Below, in pieces: positions 54,970 through 64,000 of a stretch of DNA of 64,000 bases. The first letter of the stretch is position 1. Each line of letters opens with the position of its first letter. The stretch lies in contig NZ_JAUSYN010000002.1 of the NCBI RefSeq assembly GCF_030816915.1, positions 4,973,501 through 5,037,500 of the forward strand. Direction: 5' to 3'. The notes under the pieces are model-generated. The model saw only the letters and a program-made list of their open reading frames with translations. It had not been told where the DNA came from and did no database searches. This DNA comes from Streptomyces sp. B3I8 (GTDB taxonomy: Bacteria; Actinomycetota; Actinomycetes; Streptomycetales; Streptomycetaceae). A program made the translations under genes and the position numbers.

Positions 54970-56598
54970 TCAGGGGGCTTTGTCGGGCGCGAGCGCGTCG
55001 TGGCCGGTCGCGCCGGTCCTCGTGCCCCCGGCGGGGCGCTCCGGGCCGGCGGGCTCGCGCGGCGGAGCCGTGCGCTCCGCGGTGCGCAGGGTGCGCACCG
55101 CCAACGGCGCCGCTGCCAGCAGCAGAAGGGCGCCCGCGACCGCCGCCCCCCGCATTCCGTCCACGAACGCCCCCCGCGCCGCCGCGCGGACCGCCGCCCC
55201 CGCGGCCCCCGGCATCCCGTCCGCCACCGCCAGCGCCCCACCCAGCGTCTGCCGCGCCGCCTCCGGCGCCTCGGGCCCCACCCCGTGCCGGTACAGCGCC
55301 GTGCCGATCGCGCCGAGCATCGCCATGCCGAGCGCGCCCCCGAGTTCCGCGCCCGTCTCCATCAGCGAGGACGCCGTCCCGGCCCGCTCCACCGGGGCCG
55401 CCCCCATCGCCAGGTCGGTCACCTGCGACATCACCGTGACGATCCCCGAGGCGAGCACCCCCGCCCCGGCCAGCACCAGCCACAGCGAGCCGGTCCCGGC
55501 GAGCGCCAGCAGCCCGTAGCCGGCGGCGGCCACCACGAACCCGCCGCTCACCACGTACGCCCTGTCCACCCCGCGCTGCACCAGCCCGGCCGACACCGGC
55601 GCGGCCACCCCGATCAGCACCGACGGCAGCAGTGACCACAGCGCCGCCTCCAGCGCGCTCCTGCCGAGCACGGACTGCAGGTACTGCGTCGTGAAGAACG
55701 CCGAGCCCAGCATCGCGAACGAGGAGATCAGGTTCAGCACCAGCGCGGGCGAGAAACCGCGGGCCCGCAGCAGCGCCGGCGGGATCAGCGGTGAGGCGGC
55801 CGTGCGCTGCCGGTGCACGAACAGCGCCCCGAACAGCAGCCCCACCGTCACCGACACCACGTACCGCACGTTCCAGCCGTCGGTGGGGATCTCCTTGAGG
55901 CCGTAGACCACCGGCAGCACCGCGGCCAGCGACAGCGGCACGCTGAGGAGGTCGAACCGGCCGGGCTCCGGGCTGCGCGACTCCGGCAGCAGCAGCGGGC
56001 CGAGCACCAGCAGCATCGCCATCGCGGGCAGGTTGACCAGGAACACCGAGCCCCACCAGAAGTACTGCACCAGCACCCCGCTCAGTACCGAGCCGAGCGC
56101 GATGCCGCCGGTCATCACCCCGGACCACAGCCCGATCGCCTTCGCCCGCTGCCCGGGGTCGGTGAACATCGTCCGCAGCAGGGCCATCGTCGACGGCATC
56201 AGCGTCGCCCCGCCGAGCCCGAGCACCGCGCGGGCCGCGATCAGGGTCTCCGCGCTGTCGGCGTACGCGGCCACGAGCGAGGCGGCGCCGAACGCCGCCG
56301 CGCCGGCCAGCAGCAGTCGGCGGCGGCCGAACCGGTCGCCGAGGGCGCCCATCGTCATCAGCAGTCCGGCCAGGACGAAGCCGTAGATGTCGAAGATCCA
56401 CAGCTGCTGGGTGCCGCTCGGCTCGAGGTCCGCGCCGATCGACGGGATCGCGAAGTACAGGACGGAGATGTCCATGGAGACCAGCAGCAGCGGAAGCATC
56501 AGGACGCCCATGGCGGTCCACTCGCGGCGGCCGGCCAGGGTGCCGGCGGTGGGGGAGTCCGCCGCCGGGTCGTGGTGGTTCGGGTTCGTCGGTGTCAT
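54970..56598 (-). CDS. MFS drug exporter, DHA2 (14-helix) type
   Basis: A 542-aa proton-driven exporter. Motif A is GALGDRFGRRRLLLAG, motif C-like VLGLGGATLMPSTMALL, with 14 predicted helices and LVSMDISVLYFAIPSI in the first helix as usual for EmrB/QacA relatives. ATG 56598 lies a few bases after a TACAGT hexamer. Its gene is divergent from a TetR repressor across a palindromic region, a standard arrangement for a drug-inducible pump. Confidence 0.93.
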   Translation of the reverse strand: MTPTNPNHHDPAADSPTAGTLAGRREWTAMGVLMLPLLLVSMDISVLYFAIPSIGADLEPSGTQQLWIFDIYGFVLAGLLMTMGALGDRFGRRRLLLAGAAAFGAASLVAAYADSAETLIAARAVLGLGGATLMPSTMALLRTMFTDPGQRAKAIGLWSGVMTGGIALGSVLSGVLVQYFWWGSVFLVNLPAMAMLLVLGPLLLPESRSPEPGRFDLLSVPLSLAAVLPVVYGLKEIPTDGWNVRYVVSVTVGLLFGALFVHRQRTAASPLIPPALLRARGFSPALVLNLISSFAMLGSAFFTTQYLQSVLGRSALEAALWSLLPSVLIGVAAPVSAGLVQRGVDRAYVVSGGFVVAAAGYGLLALAGTGSLWLVLAGAGVLASGIVTVMSQVTDLAMGAAPVERAGTASSLMETGAELGGALGMAMLGAIGTALYRHGVGPEAPEAARQTLGGALAVADGMPGAAGAAVRAAARGAFVDGMRGAAVAGALLLLAAAPLAVRTLRTAERTAPPREPAGPERPAGGTRTGATGHDALAPDKAP

Positions 56599-56636
56599 GG
56601 CGGGGACTGTACGCACGTCTTATACATACGTCTAGT

Positions 56637-56727
56637 ACAAGCGTGTAATACGCTTGTTCAACGGGCCCGTCCGGTGGTGGCCGGCGTGACCTGTCGGTCG
56701 TAGACGGGTGTCATAGACGCTTGTTCA
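56637..56727. promoter_or_regulatory. TetR operator sites between the MFS and TetR genes
   Basis: ACAAGCGT-GTAAT-ACGCTTGT (56637-56657) is a perfect 8-bp inverted repeat. Its right half with TCA (ACGCTTGTTCA, 56650-56660) is repeated at 56717-56727 near the TetR start. TAGGGT (56738-56743) is the -10 of the TetR gene. Confidence 0.75.
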
Positions 56728-56749
56728 GGGGGCGGGCTAGGGTGGGCGC

Positions 56750-57331
56750 ATGGGACACCGTGAGGATCTGCTCGAAGGAGCCAAGCGCTGCCTGACGGCG
56801 AAGGGGTTCGCGGCCACGACGGCACGGGACATCGTCAAGGAGTCGGGCACCAACCTGGCGTCCATCGGCTACCACTACGGCTCCAAGGACGCACTGCTCG
56901 CCCAGGCGTACGTGGCGCTCGTCGGGGAGGTCTCCGACGCCTTCGACGGCAGCGAACGGCTGCTCGCGGACACCGCGCCCGGCTCCCTCGAACGGTTCGA
57001 GGCGGTGTGGTCGAACATCATCGGGACCATGCGGGAGCCCGGTTCGATGTGGCGCCTGAGCATCGAGATCGTGGCGATGGGCGACCGCCTGCCCGAGGTC
57101 CGCGACCACCTCGCGCGCGCCCAGCGGGAGGCGATGCGCGCCCTCGTACCGCTCTTCATGGGCGGACGGGAGGAAGACGTCCCCGAGGAGACCGTCGAGA
57201 CCCTCGGCGGTTTCTACTACGCCCTGATGATGGGGCTGATCACCCACTACAACTTCGACCCCGACAGCGCCCCCGACGCGGACGCCCTCACCGCGGGGCT
57301 GCGCCAGGTCATCGCCGGGACGGGGCGGTGA
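56750..57331 (+). CDS. TetR family repressor of the adjacent MFS exporter
   Basis: A 193-aa TetR protein: REDLLEGAKRCLTAKGFAATTARDIVKESGTNLASIGYHYGSKDALL is the whole DNA-binding region, and the C-terminal part is a ligand domain (TetR_C_33-like by appearance). The ATG follows TAGGGT by 6 nt, suggesting leaderless translation. Expected to bind the palindrome in the shared upstream region and to be released by the pump's substrate. Confidence 0.9.
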   Translation: MGHREDLLEGAKRCLTAKGFAATTARDIVKESGTNLASIGYHYGSKDALLAQAYVALVGEVSDAFDGSERLLADTAPGSLERFEAVWSNIIGTMREPGSMWRLSIEIVAMGDRLPEVRDHLARAQREAMRALVPLFMGGREEDVPEETVETLGGFYYALMMGLITHYNFDPDSAPDADALTAGLRQVIAGTGR

Positions 57332-57337
57332 CCGCCC

Positions 57338-58255
57338 CTACGTGAGCGAGGCGATCAGGTCGTCCACCACCGGGGGCCCGCCCGCGACGCGCAGCGCCTC
57401 GATCCGGTGCGTCAGCTCCGGTGCCGTCACCGGGACGCCGACCAGGTCGCGCCGCCCGGCCGCCACGGAGCGCGGGAGCAGCCCGAGTCCCTGGCCGCCG
57501 GCGAGCAGTTCGGTGTACGTCCGCACGTCGAGGCCGTCGTAGCGCAGGGCCACCCGCAGCTGCGGTCCGTCCCCCACCAGGGCGCGCAGATCCGCCGGCG
57601 GGGCACCCACATCGGGCGCGTCGATCCACCGGGCGTCCACCAGGTCCGCCAGCCGCAGCCCCGTGCGGTGCGCCAGCGGGTGGGTGGACGGCAGGGCCAC
57701 CACCGCCTGCTCCCGGCCCACCGGCACCCCGCGCACCCCGGCCGTCCGGGCCGGGCGCAGCGGATCGTCGGGCAGGGCGAAACCGTCGACCAGGCCGAGG
57801 TCCAGCGTGCCGGTGGCGACGCCCTCCGCGACCGCCCGCCGGGGCAGTGTGCGCACCGTGAACTCGTGGACCCCGGCGCGCCGTGCCACCTCGCCGGTGA
57901 CCCGCAGGGTGTGCGCGGTGGCGGCCAGCGGACAGACGCCGACGGTCAGCCGTCCGGTGGACCCGCTGCCCGCCCGCCGGACCTCCGCGCGGGCCGCGTC
58001 GATGCGCAGCAGGATCGGGGCCACGTGGTCCAGCAGGCGGGCGCCCGCCTCGGTCGGCCCGACCGGCCGCCGGTGGATCAGCTCGGTGCCCAACTCCCCC
58101 TCCAGCGAGGCGATCTGCTGGGAGACCGCCGACTGCGTGTAGCCCAGTTCGCGGGCGGCGGCGGAGAAGGAGCCGAGCGTCAGGACGGTCGAGAACGTCT
58201 GGAGCAGTCGCGGATCCACGGCATCAGCATCGCTTATCAAGGGATCAGAAACCAT
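57338..58255 (-). CDS. LysR family transcriptional regulator
   Basis: A 305-aa regulator. The winged helix is at residues about 15-75 (TLGSFSAAARELGYTQSAVSQQIASLEGELG), and the periplasmic-binding-like effector domain follows (GRLTVGVCPLAATAHTL). It is divergent from the amidotransferase-like/EamA operon across 39 bp, so this regulator very likely controls that operon, and its own gene. Confidence 0.92.
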   Translation of the reverse strand: MVSDPLISDADAVDPRLLQTFSTVLTLGSFSAAARELGYTQSAVSQQIASLEGELGTELIHRRPVGPTEAGARLLDHVAPILLRIDAARAEVRRAGSGSTGRLTVGVCPLAATAHTLRVTGEVARRAGVHEFTVRTLPRRAVAEGVATGTLDLGLVDGFALPDDPLRPARTAGVRGVPVGREQAVVALPSTHPLAHRTGLRLADLVDARWIDAPDVGAPPADLRALVGDGPQLRVALRYDGLDVRTYTELLAGGQGLGLLPRSVAAGRRDLVGVPVTAPELTHRIEALRVAGGPPVVDDLIASLT

Positions 58256-58294
58256 CGTTTGCGCTACTTGGCGCGGCCGCTGGATGATTCCGGC

Positions 58295-59080
58295 GTGCCC
58301 CCGACCACTGCCTCACCCGTACGGCCGGACCCACGGCCCGACGCACGACTCGACGCGCGGCCCGACGCACGCCCCGCCCGGATCGCGCTCGTCGGCGAGC
58401 GGTCCGCGGGCGTGCCCGCGCACACCCGGTACGCGCCGATGCTGGAAGCCCTCTGGCGACGGGAACGGCTGCTGGTGGACGCCTACTGGGTGCCCACCTC
58501 CCGGCTGGAGGATCCGCGCGACCTGGCCGGGTTCGACGGCGTCTGGCTGGTCCCCGGCAGCCCGTACCGCAGCGAGGCCGGAGCGGTGACCGCGGTGCGC
58601 ACCGCCCGCGAACGGAACATCCCCCTGCTCGCCACCTGCGGCGGTTTCCTGCACGCCCTCCTGGAGTTCGCCCGCCATGTCTGCGCGATGCCCGACGCCG
58701 CGCACGCCGAACACGCCCCCGGCAGCCGGCTGCCGCTGATCGTCCCGCTCGCGCGCGACCTCGCGGGCCACGAGGCGGCCGTGCACATCGAACCCGGCTC
58801 CCTGGCCGAGGAGGCGCTCGGCACCCGCACCACGGTGGAGCGCTACCAGTGCACGCACGCCCTCGACCCCCGCCACGCCGGCACCCTGAGCGAGCACGGG
58901 CTGCGCTTCACCGGCCACGACGACGCCGGCCGGCCCCGCATGGCCGAACTGCCGGGCCACCCCTTCTTCCTGTGCACCCTGTTCCAGCCCGAACTGGCCG
59001 ACGACACCTCCCGGCCGCACCCGCTGGTACGCGCCTTCGCCGCCGCGGCGGTGGCGAACGGCTCCCGCCCCGCCGCCTGA
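58295..59080 (+). CDS. CTP-synthase C-terminal-like protein (class I glutamine amidotransferase fold) without the catalytic His
   Basis: A 261-aa protein resembling only the glutaminase half of CTP synthase. After a repetitive Arg/Asp/Pro N-terminus, IALVGERSAGVPAHTRY, VDAYWVPTSRLEDP and GFDGVWLVPGSPYRSEAGAV follow. The nucleophile region is LLATCGGFLHALLEFARHV with the cysteine present. The expected GVQFHPE triad end reads CTLFQPELAD: the histidine is Gln while the glutamate remains. Members of this group are sometimes labelled CTP synthase C-terminal region-related (seleno)proteins. It is transcribed with the EamA exporter. Probably not a normal glutaminase. Confidence 0.75.
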   Translation: MPPTTASPVRPDPRPDARLDARPDARPARIALVGERSAGVPAHTRYAPMLEALWRRERLLVDAYWVPTSRLEDPRDLAGFDGVWLVPGSPYRSEAGAVTAVRTARERNIPLLATCGGFLHALLEFARHVCAMPDAAHAEHAPGSRLPLIVPLARDLAGHEAAVHIEPGSLAEEALGTRTTVERYQCTHALDPRHAGTLSEHGLRFTGHDDAGRPRMAELPGHPFFLCTLFQPELADDTSRPHPLVRAFAAAAVANGSRPAA

Positions 59081-59132
59081 CCGGTACATCCGCACCCGCA
59101 CCGCTGCACGCCCGCAACCGAGAGGAACCCAA

Positions 59133-60146
59133 GTGGCGAATTCCGTGGACGCGTTGTCCGACGTGCCGGCCAAGTCGTGGGTGCCCCACTTCGTCGTCTG
59201 CTCGATGATCTGGGGCTCCGGCTTCGCGCTCATCAAGATCGGTGTCAAGGCCGGCATCGAACCGGGCTGGGTCGCCTTCTGGCGCTGCTTCTTCGGCGCG
59301 CTGGTGCTGTGGTCCCTGGTCCTGTTACGGCGGCTGGAGGTGCCCCGCGACTGGCGGGTGTGGGGGCACGCCCTGGTGGTGGGGACGGTGCTCAACGCCT
59401 TCCCCTTCACCCTGTTCGCCTGGGGCGAGCGGTACATCAGCTCGGTCACGGCGGGCGTGTGGAACTCCACCATCCCGCTGTTCACGCTGGTCTGGGTACT
59501 GATCATGCTGCCGGACGAGAAGCCGACCGCGCGCCGGCTGGCGGGCATCGCCACCGGTCTGTGCGGTGCCCTGGTGGTGCTCGGCGTGTGGTCCGGCGGG
59601 CAGTCCTCGCTGCTCAAGGGCAGCCTGATCTGCCTGGTCGCCACCACCTCGTACGGGCTCGGCTACACCTACACCCGCCGGTTCCTCTCCGCCGGGAACG
59701 TCCCCGCCATCACGCTGACCGCCATCCAGGTCGGCTGGGGCGCCGTCGAACTCGCGCTGTGCGCCCCGCTGACGGGCGGCGCACCGCACTGGGGCGGGCC
59801 GGGGGCGCTGGCCGCCATGGTGGTGCTCGGCGCGCTGGGCACCGGACTCGCCTACATGTGGAACCTGTCGGTGATCCGAGCCGTCGGTTCGACCGTCGCC
59901 TCCACGGTCGCGTATCTGACCCCGCTGTGGGCGGCGATCGTCGGGGTGCTCTTCCTCGACGAGTCGCTGGGGTGGAACACCGCGCTCGGCGCGCTGATGA
60001 TCGTCAGTGGCGTGCTGCTCACCCGTACGTCGCCGCCGAAACCGGCGCCGGCTCCGGCCGGGGAGGTGCCCCGGCCGGCCGAAGGGGCGGAGTCCGTGGA
60101 CGACCAGGCGCAGTCGGCGGAGGAGATGCGGCCGGCGAAGCCGTGA
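59133..60146 (+). CDS. EamA/DMT family transporter
   Basis: A 337-aa ten-helix exporter with two EamA repeats (SMIWGSGFALIKIGVKAGI, LGALGTGLAYMWNLSVIRAVGSTVASTV, then ALMIVSGVLLTRT). Relatives export amino acids and other metabolites. A GTG start with GAGAGGAAC, 52 bp after the amidotransferase-like gene: a two-gene operon under the LysR regulator. The hydrophilic Pro/Ala/Glu tail is cytosolic. Confidence 0.9.
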   Translation: MANSVDALSDVPAKSWVPHFVVCSMIWGSGFALIKIGVKAGIEPGWVAFWRCFFGALVLWSLVLLRRLEVPRDWRVWGHALVVGTVLNAFPFTLFAWGERYISSVTAGVWNSTIPLFTLVWVLIMLPDEKPTARRLAGIATGLCGALVVLGVWSGGQSSLLKGSLICLVATTSYGLGYTYTRRFLSAGNVPAITLTAIQVGWGAVELALCAPLTGGAPHWGGPGALAAMVVLGALGTGLAYMWNLSVIRAVGSTVASTVAYLTPLWAAIVGVLFLDESLGWNTALGALMIVSGVLLTRTSPPKPAPAPAGEVPRPAEGAESVDDQAQSAEEMRPAKP

Positions 60147-60259
60147 CCGCGCCCGCGGGGCCGTGACGCGCCCGGCATCCCGGCCCCGGGTTCGTCCCGC
60201 GCCCCGGCCCCGGTTCCGGGCCCGTCCCGTGCCGGGGTCGTCCGACCCGCGCCGTGGGG

Positions 60260-61372
60260 TCAGGGCGCGGCCGGCGGGCCGTCCGGTCGCAGCACGGTGT
60301 CCAGGCGCGCGAGGCCCTCGGTCACCGTCGCGGGGTCGCGGGCGAAGCCGAGCCGGAATCCCTCGTCGCAGCCCATCGTCTCGCCGGGCGTCAGCAGTAC
60401 GCCCGCCGCCAGCGCGCGGCGGCACAGCGCCAGCGAGGGCTCCCCGGTGCGGAGCCGGACCCAGGCGAAGGGCGTGTCCTGCGGCGGTACCAGCCGCACC
60501 GCGTCGCCGTTGCGGGCCGCCCACTCCTGAACGAGGCGCAGCCCCGGGGCGCACAGCCGGTGGTACTCCCGCGTGAACTCCTCGTGCCGTTCCAGCACGG
60601 AGCAGGCCAGGGCCTCGCACAGCACGGAGTTGGCGATCGAGGTGAGGAACTTCCGCTCCGCGCAGGCCCGTACGAGGCCCGGGGCGCCGTACATCCAGCC
60701 GATGCGCAGCCCCGGCAGGCCGTAGGTCTTGGACAGCCCGGAGACCGAGACCACCCGGTCGCGGCCGACGGCCGCCGAGCGCGAGAGGTCGATCGCGTAC
60801 TCCTCGTCGACCAGCAGAAAGGCGTCCCGTTCCGCGGCCAGCGCGGCGAGGTCGCGCAGCGCGCGCTTCCCGATCCGCCGGCCGGTGGGGTTGCAGGGCG
60901 AGTTCAGCGCGATGAGCCGCAGGTCGTCGCCGGCCGCCGCGGCCACGGCGGCCGCGTCGACGCTGAGGTCCGGCCCGTACGGCAGGACCGTCGTACGGGC
61001 ACCGAGCCGGGACGGCAGGTCCAGCAGCGGCTGCCAGCCGGGGGCGAACGCGATCACCTGGTCGCCGGGCCGCACCAGGACGTCGAACAGCAGGAACAGG
61101 GCCTCCTGCGCGCCGTGCGTGACGGTGACCGACTCGGGTCCTCCGCCGCCGTACAGCCCGGCGATCAGCCGGCGCAGCGCCGCGGTGCCGCGGTCGGTGC
61201 CGTAGTCCAGGGTGAGGGCGGCGGGCACGGTCAGGTCGGACAGCGGGTGGCTCGGTACGTAGCTGTTGCCGAGGTCGATGTCGTAACGGCCCGCGGAGTC
61301 CTCGAACGTCCAGCGGGCGATGGAGTAGTACGACGGTGCGACGGTGCCGGCGCCACCGGCCGCGGGCGTCAC
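60260..61372 (-). CDS. PLP-dependent aminotransferase (class I/II)
   Basis: A 370-aa fold-type I enzyme. Landmarks: TLDYGTDRGTAALRRLIA, NSPCNPTGRRIG (cofactor and substrate loop), VDEEYAIDL, and the PLP lysine in SVSGLSKTYGLPGLRIGW. The C-terminal arginine region is EGFRLGFARDP. It begins with GTG 61372 overlapping the stop codon of the DapF-like gene by 4 nt, so both act in the same pathway. Substrate unknown; an amino acid made by the neighbouring enzymes is likely. Confidence 0.88.
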   Translation of the reverse strand: MTPAAGGAGTVAPSYYSIARWTFEDSAGRYDIDLGNSYVPSHPLSDLTVPAALTLDYGTDRGTAALRRLIAGLYGGGGPESVTVTHGAQEALFLLFDVLVRPGDQVIAFAPGWQPLLDLPSRLGARTTVLPYGPDLSVDAAAVAAAAGDDLRLIALNSPCNPTGRRIGKRALRDLAALAAERDAFLLVDEEYAIDLSRSAAVGRDRVVSVSGLSKTYGLPGLRIGWMYGAPGLVRACAERKFLTSIANSVLCEALACSVLERHEEFTREYHRLCAPGLRLVQEWAARNGDAVRLVPPQDTPFAWVRLRTGEPSLALCRRALAAGVLLTPGETMGCDEGFRLGFARDPATVTEGLARLDTVLRPDGPPAAP

Positions 61373-62241
61373 GCGGCCGCCCCGAGGCGGTCGAGGAACA
61401 TCGGCGCCAGGGTTCCGGCCGCCACCTGCTCCACCACCCCGGCCAGGGTGACCGCGCCCCGCGGGTCGACGGTCGTCCCGACGGCACCGCCGGGCATCCG
61501 CACCCGTACCGCGCGGTCCACCAGCCCCAGGACGTGCGCCGCGCTGACCGCGGCGCAGGCGCCGGCCCCGGAGGCCAGGGTGTAGCCGGCCCCGCGCTCC
61601 CAGATCTCGATCTCCACCGTGCCGCGGTCGAGCACGCGCAGGAACTGCACGTTGGTGCGTTCGGGGAAGGCCGGATGGCCGGCGATGGCCGGGCCCAGCT
61701 CCCGTGCCAGCGCGGCGGACACCTCCGGGAGCGGGACCACGGTGTGGGGGTTGCCGTTGTTCAGGCAGGTCACCCGCAGCCGTCGCCCGGACACCTCCAG
61801 CACCCGGTCGACGACGGGTCCGGGCAGATCCGGGGCGGGGACGTCCGCGGCCTCGAAGGAGGGCTGCCCCATGTCCACCCGGACGAGTCCGGCCGCGGGG
61901 TCGTCGATCCGCACCGCCGTGTCCCCCGCGTGGGTACGCAGGACGACGTCCCGCCCCCCGCCGCGGTGCTGGGACAGATACAGCGCGAAGATGCGCAGCC
62001 CGTTGGCGCTCCGGCCGCACGGGCTGCCGTCGGGGTTGAAGGTGCGCAGGACGACCGGTTCACCGGCCCGCACCGCACCGAGGGGCCCCACCAGCACCCC
62101 GTCGGCACCGATGCCGCGGTGCCGGTCGCACAGCAGGCGCGCGGCCGTCGGCGCGGAGGGCAGGCCCAGCAGGTCGATCCGCAGCGGATCGACGACGAGG
62201 TAGTCGTTGCCCAGTGCCTGGTACTTCACGAAGTCGTGCAT
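61369..62241 (-). CDS. diaminopimelate-epimerase-fold protein with Ser in place of both catalytic Cys
   Basis: A 290-aa DapF homologue. N- and C-terminal halves share the fold: VKYQALGNDYLVVD, FNPDGSPCGRSANGLRIF, NGNPHTVV, and IWERGAGYTLASGAGACAA. In true DapF the catalytic cysteines lie in DGSxxxxCGNG and TxACGTG. Here the aligned residues are Ser78 (SANG) and Ser224 (ASGAG). This is not the housekeeping enzyme for lysine and cell wall; it may epimerise or dehydrate another amino acid, or be inactive. Coupled to the aminotransferase downstream. Confidence 0.85.
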   Translation of the reverse strand: MHDFVKYQALGNDYLVVDPLRIDLLGLPSAPTAARLLCDRHRGIGADGVLVGPLGAVRAGEPVVLRTFNPDGSPCGRSANGLRIFALYLSQHRGGGRDVVLRTHAGDTAVRIDDPAAGLVRVDMGQPSFEAADVPAPDLPGPVVDRVLEVSGRRLRVTCLNNGNPHTVVPLPEVSAALARELGPAIAGHPAFPERTNVQFLRVLDRGTVEIEIWERGAGYTLASGAGACAAVSAAHVLGLVDRAVRVRMPGGAVGTTVDPRGAVTLAGVVEQVAAGTLAPMFLDRLGAAA

Positions 62242-62335
62242 GTGCTGTGCCCCCTGCTTTCGCTGCCTGCTGTCCGCTGCTCGCTGTCCGCCGGCCATCA
62301 GGGGAAGTCCCCGGCGATGTCCGGCCGTTCCGCGC

Positions 62336-62375
62336 GGGCGGGGCCGCACACCACGTGCGGTGTGCGGCCCCGCCC
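62336..62375 (-). terminator. 17-bp perfect terminator hairpin
   Basis: GGGCGGGGCCGCACACC and GGTGTGCGGCCCCGCCC pair perfectly around a 6-nt loop, 23 bp after the stop codon of the dioxygenase gene on the minus strand. It separates that transcript from the DapF-like/aminotransferase unit, whose promoter must lie in 62242-62335. Confidence 0.85.
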
Positions 62376-62398
62376 GGTCGCGCCGAGGGGTGCCGCGG

Positions 62399-63103
62399 CT
62401 ACATCGCCGCCGCCTCCTCGGCGTCGCTGAGGACCGCCTCGTCGTGGTCGTCGCCGTACCACTTCTCGCTCCAGCGGGAGAAGGCGACGATCACGATGTC
62501 GCGGTGCCCGGGGCCGCCGTCGGCGGACAGCACGTCGGTGACGTCGTGGGCGATCGCCCGGTCGTCCAGCAGCACCGCCTGCCCGGCGTCCAGCGTCCCG
62601 TTCCAGAACGGCTCCGTCGCGCCGGGCTCCCACAGCCGGGTCAGGCCGCCGCCGACGTTGTTGCGCCGCAGCACGGCGATCATCACGTACTCGTGCCCGT
62701 CGTGGTGGACGCCCTCAGGGGTCAGCGGGCCGGCCTTCTCACCGGTGGCCCGGGTGCGGTTCTGGTGCACGTTGATCTGCCAGTCGTCCGCGGTGTCCAG
62801 CGGAAAGGCCTCCGCGCCGGCCCGGATGAGGGGCGTGAAGTCCACCTCGATCGGCAGGTACCCCCGGCGCATTCCGCCGCCGACCTTGTTGAACTTCTTG
62901 AACGCGGTGTAATCCCGGTGCGGCAGGAGCTCGAAGGTCCAGCCGGAGCCTTTTTCGTGACTCATCCGGTACTGCGAGAACCGCTTGAACCGTGTTCCGT
63001 TTCCCATGTAGTCGTCGACCGGGCAGTTGTCGTAACTATCCAGTATGTCCTGCTGGATCGCCGGGAGGTCGATGACGGAGAAGTGCTGTTCGGACAGAGG
63101 CAT
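62399..63103 (-). CDS. 2-oxoglutarate/Fe(II) dioxygenase, PF10014 (amino acid hydroxylase type)
   Basis: A 234-aa protein of the family that includes the Bacillus L-isoleucine 4-hydroxylase. QINVHQNRTRATGE, the metal-binding HxD in EGVHHDGHEYVMI, GGGLTRLWEPG, then LDDRAIAHDVTDVL with the distal histidine and HRDIVIVAFSRW with the 2-oxoglutarate arginine region. Such enzymes hydroxylate free aliphatic amino acids. ATG 63103 has a strong GGAAGGAAG site. It is downstream of the diiron oxidase gene. Confidence 0.88.
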   Translation of the reverse strand: MPLSEQHFSVIDLPAIQQDILDSYDNCPVDDYMGNGTRFKRFSQYRMSHEKGSGWTFELLPHRDYTAFKKFNKVGGGMRRGYLPIEVDFTPLIRAGAEAFPLDTADDWQINVHQNRTRATGEKAGPLTPEGVHHDGHEYVMIAVLRRNNVGGGLTRLWEPGATEPFWNGTLDAGQAVLLDDRAIAHDVTDVLSADGGPGHRDIVIVAFSRWSEKWYGDDHDEAVLSDAEEAAAM

Positions 63104-63187
63104 GAAGTGCGGCTTCCTTCCCGAGAGGCATGTTCCACGAAAGCGTCGCTGGTCTTTTCCGAGGGGGCCTTTCCGTGCGGCTGAGGA

Positions 63188-64000
63188 CTAGCCGGAAACC
63201 GGCTGCATGCTTTCTGCGGAGGCGTGGTGCTCCGGCTTTTCGCCGGGCATCCGCCCGGACACCTCGGCGAGTCGTTCGTCGAGATAGCGGGCCGAGGAAT
63301 TGAGCCGCCACAGCGCCCCGCGGGCGATTCCCCGGCGCATGTACTCCGACGGCGCGGACGGTTTCACGATGTTGTGGAACCAGCCGGCCGCGTGCTGGGA
63401 GTCCACGGTGATGTGCAGCCGGTGGTAGACGATTCCCACCTCGGGCAGGCCGAGGCGCTCCCACGCGCTCACCACCTGCACGAACCGGTCCGGCACCAGC
63501 CATTCGGTCATGCCCAGGAAGCCGACGGCCTCCGGATAGCGGTGGCGGTACCGGCTGAGGAGCACCGCGAGGTTCCCGCTCAGCAGGGCGGTGGCGGTCA
63601 GCGACTCCTCCAGCTCCCGCTGGGACACCTCGAACACGTCGAATATCTGGTTGAAGAGATGGGTGTGGACCTCCGCGGGCTTCCCGTTCCCCATCTCGTC
63701 CCAGAAGTTGCCCGCGATCTCCATTTTCGCGGGGCCGGAGGTGCCCACCTGCATCAGGGCCAGCAGGTCGTCGAACCGGCCGTCGACGACCGACTCCTGG
63801 ATCATGTACGTGCGCACATCCGCCGCCGTCGCGTGATGGCGGATGAAATCCATGTAGTACGGGTGCTTGAACACGCGGTGGCGCCGCGCCCGGTCCTTGA
63901 GCCAGGACAGGTACGCGCCGGGCTCGGCGGGCAGATCCTCCAGCAGCGTGCCGTCCAGCTGCCGGTCCTCGCCCTCCAGCGTCGCCCGTTCCAGGAGCCG
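63188..64000 (-). CDS. heme-oxygenase-like diiron oxidase (iron-containing redox enzyme), 5' end outside the window
   Basis: The frame is open to the last base (271 codons seen). The helical protein shows likely iron ligands in MIQESVVDGRFDD, EIAGNFWDEMGNGKPAEVHTHLF and LHITVDSQHAAGWF (HxxxDxxH). HDO-fold enzymes include N-oxygenases and the C-C lyase BesC acting on amino acids. With the PF10014 dioxygenase 84 bp downstream it suggests sequential oxidation of an amino acid. The exact reaction cannot be deduced. Confidence 0.82.
   Translation of the reverse strand, partial: RLLERATLEGEDRQLDGTLLEDLPAEPGAYLSWLKDRARRHRVFKHPYYMDFIRHHATAADVRTYMIQESVVDGRFDDLLALMQVGTSGPAKMEIAGNFWDEMGNGKPAEVHTHLFNQIFDVFEVSQRELEESLTATALLSGNLAVLLSRYRHRYPEAVGFLGMTEWLVPDRFVQVVSAWERLGLPEVGIVYHRLHITVDSQHAAGWFHNIVKPSAPSEYMRRGIARGALWRLNSSARYLDERLAEVSGRMPGEKPEHHASAESMQPVSG

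Follow-up and report, generated by a model that had tools for sequence, protein, structure and literature searches.

Gene content of the locus

The 64 000-nucleotide stretch of the Streptomyces sp. B3I8 genome analyzed here (the window, G000:C2:4973501-5037500, within a genome of 7.98 Mb) carries at its right end a block of genes for two oxygenases, a protein resembling diaminopimelate epimerase (DapF), a pyridoxal phosphate (PLP) enzyme, a candidate exporter and putative regulators. We characterized this block with emphasis on the DapF-like protein, in which both catalytic cysteines of the enzyme that it resembles are replaced. All families that a preliminary description of the window had named were detected by Pfam at the place assigned to them and, as had been anticipated, the locus continues past the window, where the gene of the diiron oxidase extends to 64288 and is followed by a SARP gene. 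The rightward extension taken from the same genome is referred to as L005, in which a position equals the window position minus 54000. The genes are arranged as follows.

57338-58255, minus strand: LysR regulator (PF00126 and PF03466, Pfam), divergent from the CTP-synthase-like gene
58295-59080, plus strand: class-I glutamine amidotransferase (GATase)-like protein related to the CTP synthase C-terminal region (PRK06186; NF004836; PF00117 barely over its cut-off)
59133-60146, plus strand: EamA-family candidate exporter (PF00892, E 4.4e-38, Pfam)
60260-61372, minus strand: fold-type-I PLP enzyme with the class I/II aminotransferase fold (AT; PF00155, Pfam)
61369-62241, minus strand: DapF-like protein with the DAP_epimerase fold (Pfam; TIGR00652), at the BelM/HrmT position
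62399-63103, minus strand: 2-oxoglutarate/iron (2OG) oxygenase, predicted cyclopropanase of the BelL/HrmJ type (PF10014, E 1.3e-46)
63188-64288, minus strand: heme-oxygenase-like diiron oxidase (HDO) of the HrmI/BelK type, 366 amino acids (PF14518), with its start past the window end
~64540-66351 (L005:10540-12351), divergent from the HDO gene: AfsR/SARP-type regulator with a BTAD domain (Pfam)
L005:13560-16340, between the SARP gene and a PucR-type regulator gene: large NTPase-like protein, NACHT-like by sequence reading

The two oxygenases resemble a lysine-nitrating and cyclopropane-forming pair

The HDO, the 2OG oxygenase and the DapF-like protein are encoded in this order. The same trio of genes (belK/hrmI, belL/hrmJ and belM/hrmT) belongs to two known pathways, in which lysine is nitrated and a nitrocyclopropane is then formed (PMC10764440). 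The likeness to the hormaomycin pathway of Streptomyces (hrmI/hrmJ/hrmT) thus consists of the HDO, the PF10014 2OG oxygenase and the DapF homologue, whereas hormaomycin is assembled by a non-ribosomal peptide synthetase (NRPS; PMC10764440) and the window block contains none. The belactosin pathway (belK/belL/belM/belN) shares the trio as well as, by alignment reading, the histidine at the BelL-type position, but, in contrast to the window block, includes ATP-grasp ligases and a molybdenum reductase that acts on the nitro group (PMC10764440).

Among solved structures, HrmI (9n1a) was the sole relative of the window HDO at E < 0.001 (E 2.5e-67), and 118 of 251 aligned residues are identical (47%). 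The patterns E-x9-H and H-x3-D-x2-H, which we take to be the metal ligands of HDOs, are present in all 40 HDOs encoded in HDO-2OG cassettes, the window's among them, and the first-helix pattern matches 32 of these 40. The PF10014 protein matched the structures 9dq0 (E 3.8e-116) and 8jms (E 4.6e-116) with 390 bits, and 163 of 229 residues are identical to 9dq0 (71%). Both structures are deposited as 'BsmA domain containing protein' and represent a stand-alone BelL homologue, probably ScBelL of S. cavourensis; the assignment of the window enzyme to the BelL/HrmJ type was made via these two structures and not via the BelL or HrmJ sequences. Unlike the window gene, the nearest relative of 9dq0 among our loci (96.5%, L042) sits beside genes for an NRPS, a serine hydroxymethyltransferase (SHMT) and a thioesterase. 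The HxD motif and the distal histidine of the PF10014 enzyme are invariant across 17 alignment rows. A histidine of the window enzyme is replaced by arginine in an HrmJ-like relative that is 45% identical to it (L105; L052 is the same place), and since the HDO encoded there shares 75.5% identity with HrmI, we refer to this locus as hormaomycin-type. A 4-hydroxylation of the isoleucine-dioxygenase type was discarded as an explanation, as L-isoleucine-4-hydroxylase (6lnh) was matched with E 0.0039 only, compared to E 3.8e-116 for 9dq0. On the basis of sequence, the HDO and the PF10014 enzyme are hence relatives of the lysine-nitration and nitrocyclopropane pair of hormaomycin and belactosin. The generic hydroxylation or oxidation of amino acids that had been envisaged earlier gives way to this defined sequence of reactions, namely lysine nitration followed by nitrocyclopropane formation (PMC10764440).

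The DapF-like protein has lost both catalytic cysteines

The DapF-like protein passes the diaminopimelate epimerase profile TIGR00652 with 197.3 bits, well above the curated cut-off of 114.65. This profile is, however, blind to absent cysteines. The catalytic pair, which we take to be Cys73 and Cys217 in the numbering of Haemophilus influenzae DapF (the recognition residues given below follow the same numbering), is replaced by Ser78 and Ser224 in the window protein, and an extra cysteine, Cys75, precedes Ser78 by three residues. Two serines were found in each of the 40 cassette copies as well as in the proteins of a hormaomycin-type contig (L132) and of an Agrobacterium plasmid (L140), i.e. 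in 42 of 42 copies read, the window's included. All 40 cassette copies likewise contain Cys75. As a control, we inspected 16 DapFs encoded outside of cassettes (the housekeeping copy of the window's genome, eight from seven searched genomes and seven from other DapF-matching genomes), all of which possess both cysteines and none of which possesses Cys75. A two-cysteine DapF is thus encoded both by the window's own genome and by all seven further genomes searched, five of which carry the HDO-2OG cassette; genomes that possess it include G209, G259, G361, G005 and G062.

The ligand pocket is largely retained. The recognition residues N11, N64, H159, N190, E208 and R209 are present in 40 of 40 copies, and the window copy possesses all tested positions for recognition of the distal L-amino acid and the proximal carboxylate. 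While the sequence identity to the window's copy drops to 44%, Cys75, Ser78 and Ser224 remain invariant, a sign of selection and not of decay. In a phylogenetic tree of 33 rows, some of which are long, a branch with a support of 100/98 separates the cassette copies from the other sequences. In an AlphaFold2 model of the protein (pLDDT 92.6), residues 79 and 225, right after Ser78 and Ser224, are the first of the two central helices, and Cys75 is placed in the loop ahead of the helix and not at the helix start. In known structures, it is at these helix starts that the catalytic cysteines are located (PMC12039745). Both annotated records that we examined name their DapF-like proteins diaminopimelate epimerase; since the TIGR00652 profile does the same, automatic annotation masks the difference.

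The DapF-like gene is linked to the oxygenase pair across genomes

We surveyed 392 genomes of the same genus and a named collection of 46 loci. A PF10014 2OG gene at an identity of at least 66% occurs in 15 of the 392 genomes, and the identical 15 genomes carry the DapF-like gene with two serines (15 of 15 copies read; Fisher p 2e-27). The DapF-like match exceeds 200 bits in 14 of them, and the copy of the fifteenth (G348) is split into two matches (129 and 98 bits). In seven further genomes a DapF is matched at E <= 1e-22 (best 124 bits), each time a two-cysteine protein. The PLP enzyme was found at E <= 1e-60 in 12 of the 15 genomes and in two others (Fisher p 2e-18); the remaining G209, G025 and G289 harbor a more distant PLP enzyme (~30% identical) in the locus. 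In the named collection, 36 of 46 loci possess both HDO and 2OG genes (L087 being counted with its HDO in two pieces, L106 being left out), accompanied by a DapF-like gene in 34 and by a PLP enzyme of either kind in 30. L106 shows a truncated 2OG match together with DapF and PLP enzyme genes. Nine loci with a distant 2OG gene and without HDO showed no DapF-like or PLP enzyme gene within the available stretch, which is short in some of them. The association of these genes is not due to chance. Concerning the earlier question of whether seven genes travel together, the core of HDO, 2OG, DapF-like and PLP enzyme genes recurs widely, but the LysR and CTP-synthase-like genes are generic and missing from most relatives of this core.

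Such nine loci, L096-L104, encode a 2OG oxygenase with 41-45% identity, in most cases next to a gene of the ATP-grasp family and to a member of a recurring family of 440-640 amino acids (f14); lacking HDO, DapF-like and PLP enzyme genes within the available stretch, they probably represent a different pathway.

Classes of cassettes

The cassettes fall into classes according to their companion genes. In class A, the genes for SARP, HDO, 2OG, DapF-like protein and PLP enzyme are followed by the EamA and CTP-synthase-like genes on the other strand and then by the LysR gene. This block is present in five records, namely the window, L037, L061 (S. daqingensis), L062 (Streptomyces sp. NBC_01306) and L063 (S. 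albidus), of which L037 and L062 are near-identical and L061 and L063 show a shorter SARP match. Its recurrence in L037, L061, L062 and L063 speaks for the compact pathway with an exporter for a small modified amino acid that had been proposed from the window sequence. As had also been noted, the block contains no NRPS, polyketide synthase or ribosomally synthesized and post-translationally modified peptide genes. Class B additionally contains an NRPS, mostly a thioesterase and often an SHMT gene, and class C a PIG-L and mostly an ATP-grasp gene. Class D is distinguished by a molybdopterin oxidoreductase, an aldo/keto reductase, a distant PLP enzyme of the aminotransferase type, an ornithine-cyclodeaminase-like protein and an EamA protein of its own (L079:7667-16732, with relatives L078, L080-L082, L087 and L091 and on plasmid NZ_CP108679, L141). 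Reasoned from this gene content, class D could lead to 4,5-methanoproline by way of reduction of the nitro group, a transamination, closure of the ring and reduction of an imine. Loci labeled Lentzea and Nocardia possess the molybdopterin enzyme and lack the PLP enzyme, and ATP-grasp and molybdopterin genes are mixed in L092. Outside the actinomycetes, plasmid pRvVAT039a of Agrobacterium vitis, a plant-associated alphaproteobacterium, carries HDO, 2OG, DapF, molybdopterin enzyme and aldo/keto reductase genes (L140:6928-12864) with an EamA gene ~4 kb upstream, and its DapF, annotated as diaminopimelate epimerase, has the two serines.

In class A alone, the block showed neither assembly genes nor a molybdopterin enzyme, the comparison covering the block itself and neither the flanks of the other class-A loci nor nitro reductases encoded elsewhere. 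Since the block lacks these genes, the class-A product is likely a free nitrocyclopropyl amino acid or a simple derivative of it.

The PLP enzyme is probably coupled in translation to the DapF-like protein

The start of the PLP enzyme gene overlaps the stop of the DapF-like gene by 4 bp in 22 of 23 loci, with a 4-bp gap in the 23rd, as counted from the starts of our own gene caller; in four further unnamed loci outside of this count the overlaps amount to 4, 4, 4 and 37 bp. The two proteins are thus probably made by coupled translation. The catalytic lysine K215 of the PLP enzyme is invariant in 22 alignment rows. Its nearest named profiles are those of the PLP arginine cyclases GntC (197 bits, cut-off 415) and VioD (191 bits, cut-off 391), and both scores remain below the NCBIfam equivalog cut-offs. 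VioD reportedly acts after a hydroxylase. GntC, VioD and OrfR share a glutamate and two serines, whereas the window enzyme lacks the glutamate and one serine, as the profile alignment places Ala19 at the position of Glu9 of GntC and Ser37-Tyr38 at that of Ser25-Ser26; the arginine cyclases are therefore matched neither in residues nor in profile score. In its position beside an oxygenase gene, the enzyme is comparable to GntC, which acts after a hydroxylase (PMC10367076). The enzyme was also considered as DapL, but 3asa, named LL-diaminopimelate aminotransferase, appears only about fortieth in the list of matches with E 4.7e-9. A lysine supply of the DapL type formed by the DapF-like protein and the PLP enzyme was dismissed, the latter not being DapL-like and the former being devoid of its catalytic cysteines.

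Two relatives of the PLP enzyme (38-43% identity) adjoin distant PF10014 enzymes with no HDO or DapF gene nearby. Because of this pairing, the substrate of the PLP enzyme, judged from gene neighborhood, seems to be the product of the PF10014 enzyme. Such two-gene units of a PF10014 oxygenase and a PLP enzyme of the same type are located at L138:7835-9558 and L139:8075-10787, the latter being followed by AzlC/AzlD amino-acid exporter genes.

Exporter, regulators and genomic surroundings

The EamA gene is retained in five of five class-A loci, and its presence makes the encoded protein a candidate exporter of the amino acid; it scores 85 bits with TIGR00950, under the cut-off of 230. The CTP-synthase-like protein matches NF004836, 'CTP synthase C-terminal region-related (seleno)protein', with 280 bits (cut-off 260), and its relatives (E <= 1e-40) are found in 143 of 392 genomes. 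All ten of the best-scoring non-cluster loci examined contain it as a divergent pair with a LysR gene. Because of this generic pairing, a function of the CTP-synthase-like protein as dedicated ligase was rejected. At the GATase-like nucleophile position it retains a cysteine, but a glutamine (FQPE) occupies the site of the histidine that is usual in class-I amidotransferases. Regulation of the cluster may fall to the products of the SARP and LysR genes.

To the right of the NTPase-like gene lie the PucR-type regulator gene (Pfam) and genes read as proline/pyrroline-5-carboxylate dehydrogenase; to the left of the block lie a TetR gene (Pfam) and, by sequence reading, an MFS-type gene and serA. 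The MFS-type transporter and TetR genes (54970-57331) are divergent and adjoin the block. At the ends of class-A locus L037 no relatives of the MFS and TetR genes were found, nor was the NTPase-like protein found in that locus. In 13 of 15 relatives of the same genus, serA and the PucR gene lie on one contig 0.4-9.9 kb apart, the other two having no PucR match, while their spacing amounts to 15.5 kb in the window's genome. In six genomes of the same order with both matches the two genes are not neighbors, so the arrangement is a feature of the genus. Judged from this comparison, the block looks like an insertion into the serA-pucR neighborhood and is not part of the ordinary core; a chance proximity within the core was ruled out.

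Extension of the sequence past 64000 revealed regulators and the NTPase-like gene, and neither NRPS nor ATP-grasp genes were present among the scanned L005 proteins, which do not comprise every flanking gene, or among the recurring families; no molybdopterin gene is located in the block. The region L005:2500-12600 contained no sigma-70-type promoter pattern and two terminator-like matches, with 1.7 expected by chance, and L005 contained no tRNA. A search for regulator sites in the HDO-SARP intergenic region, with four loci aligned, yielded no motif that we would claim.

A proposed route to a nitrocyclopropyl amino acid

Judging from these genes, we consider it likely that the block is a stand-alone cluster for biosynthesis and export of a nitrocyclopropyl amino acid. 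By homology to the tested enzymes, the HDO would oxidize the side-chain amine of free L-lysine to L-6-nitronorleucine, and the PF10014 enzyme would then take the C4 hydrogen and join C4 to the nitronate carbon C6, resulting in one diastereomer of 3-(2-nitrocyclopropyl)alanine. For the DapF-like protein, we newly propose that it may bind 6-nitronorleucine and form, hold or hand over the nitronate used by the cyclopropanase. 6-Nitronorleucine is isosteric with diaminopimelate, with the nitro group in the place of the proximal (second) carboxylate and C6 in that of the epimerized carbon, and it is because of this resemblance that we propose the protein as a handler of the nitronate, be it as catalyst or as immunity decoy. 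The acidity of a nitroalkane C-H far exceeds that of the alpha C-H of an amino acid, so that a thiolate pair would not be needed for nitronate formation. C6 deprotonation is critical for cyclopropanation and is possible without an enzyme at pH 7.5, and a pH of 9-11 promotes cyclization (PMC10764440). It is possible, though less likely than not, that the DapF-like protein supplies the nitronate at neutral pH, be it by forming or by delivering it; such a role would agree with the distribution of the gene, as would that of a decoy. The least secure step is that of the PLP enzyme, which may act on the amino acid either as transaminase or via alpha/beta chemistry as in VioD and GntC, after which the EamA protein would export the product. 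Possible, though again less likely than not, is the wider proposal that, from Streptomyces to Agrobacterium, a cofactor-free epimerase re-tooled by exchange of its thiols for serines binds 6-nitronorleucine and makes or carries its nitronate for a radical cyclopropanation, and that in class A the coupled PLP enzyme acts on the free product, which would be exported as an antimetabolite.

Several observations weigh against parts of this proposal. As a base, serine is inferior to the thiolate of cysteine, and the recognition-site residue N157 persists in 29 of 40 copies, being replaced in 11. One locus with HDO and 2OG genes (L078) has no DapF-like gene, the other cassette of the same strain (L068) possessing one, and the hormaomycin-type locus L105 lacks it as well, with a copy ~41 kb away on the same contig (L132). 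The PLP enzyme is absent from 6 of the 36 HDO-2OG loci and thus does not belong to a minimal pathway. For export and free release, the only indications are the presence of an EamA gene and the lack of assembly genes in the block. Cyclopropanases of the BelL/HrmJ family are reported to work as purified enzymes and BelL itself accelerates C6 deprotonation (PMC10764440), so that the DapF-like protein may not be required. Moreover, HDOs with similar ligand sets and near-identical substrates can differ in their reaction (PMC13108848).

The last point leads to the possibility that the window HDO has diverged and, instead of nitrating lysine, e.g. cleaves or desaturates an amino acid, in which case the product would not be a nitrocyclopropane. 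An identity of 47% to HrmI leaves room for such a change, and HrmI and BesC indeed react differently on near-identical substrates (PMC13108848). With a partner 2OG oxygenase 71% identical to 9dq0 and a gene trio that is that of two known nitrocyclopropane pathways, we nevertheless regard this as improbable. For the DapF-like protein itself, PMC10764440, the only paper in the open-licence literature in which we found it discussed, suggests that it may be a diaminopimelate epimerase raising the lysine supply for the HDO, in agreement with the TIGR00652 score and with the name given in both annotated records. Against this stands the replacement of both catalytic cysteines by serine in all 42 copies, which makes a role in lysine supply unlikely: alanine mutants of either cysteine (C83A, C221A) and of eight binding residues rendered Corynebacterium glutamicum DapF almost inactive (PMC5296763), and exchange of cysteine for serine greatly reduced the activity of a related racemase (PMC11602996). 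As, in addition, a two-cysteine DapF already exists in the window's genome and in all seven genomes searched, the protein appears not to be a diaminopimelate epimerase, and we consider the published suggestion highly improbable.

The same loss of both cysteines speaks against the epimerization that had been ascribed to the protein from the window sequence. It might still epimerize another carbon, that of nitrocyclopropylalanine which bears the nitro group (C2') or its alpha carbon, by means of the serines or of Cys75, which is present in every cassette copy and in no ordinary DapF within a fold that is intact in the model. Hormaomycin contains stereoisomers of the nitrocyclopropylalanine residue, which would fit such an activity. 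In known cases, however, the stereochemistry of the ring is determined by the cyclopropanase itself (PMC10764440), the residues recognizing the L-configured distal end are kept and Cys75 resides in the loop before the helix rather than at its start, so that this reading is unlikely. A further alternative is that the protein serves immunity or buffering: the nitronate of the nitro amino acid would mimic the carbanion formed by the housekeeping DapF and poison this enzyme, and a thiol-free homologue would bind it without turnover. The largely kept pocket without thiols, the coexistence with a two-cysteine DapF in the window's genome and in the five genomes named above and the linkage of the gene to HDO plus 2OG, not seen with 2OG alone, would all agree with a decoy. 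Since a decoy would need to be produced in excess and the 4-bp overlap with the PLP enzyme gene suits a catalytic partner better, we consider it doubtful.

Implications

Nitrocyclopropane amino acids and their amines serve as building blocks in two peptide families (PMC10764440). The class-A cluster and its relatives suggest that, beyond this use, such amino acids may be produced and released by exporters as small molecules, and the conserved loss of both thiols in the third cassette gene points to a new, testable role for an old fold.

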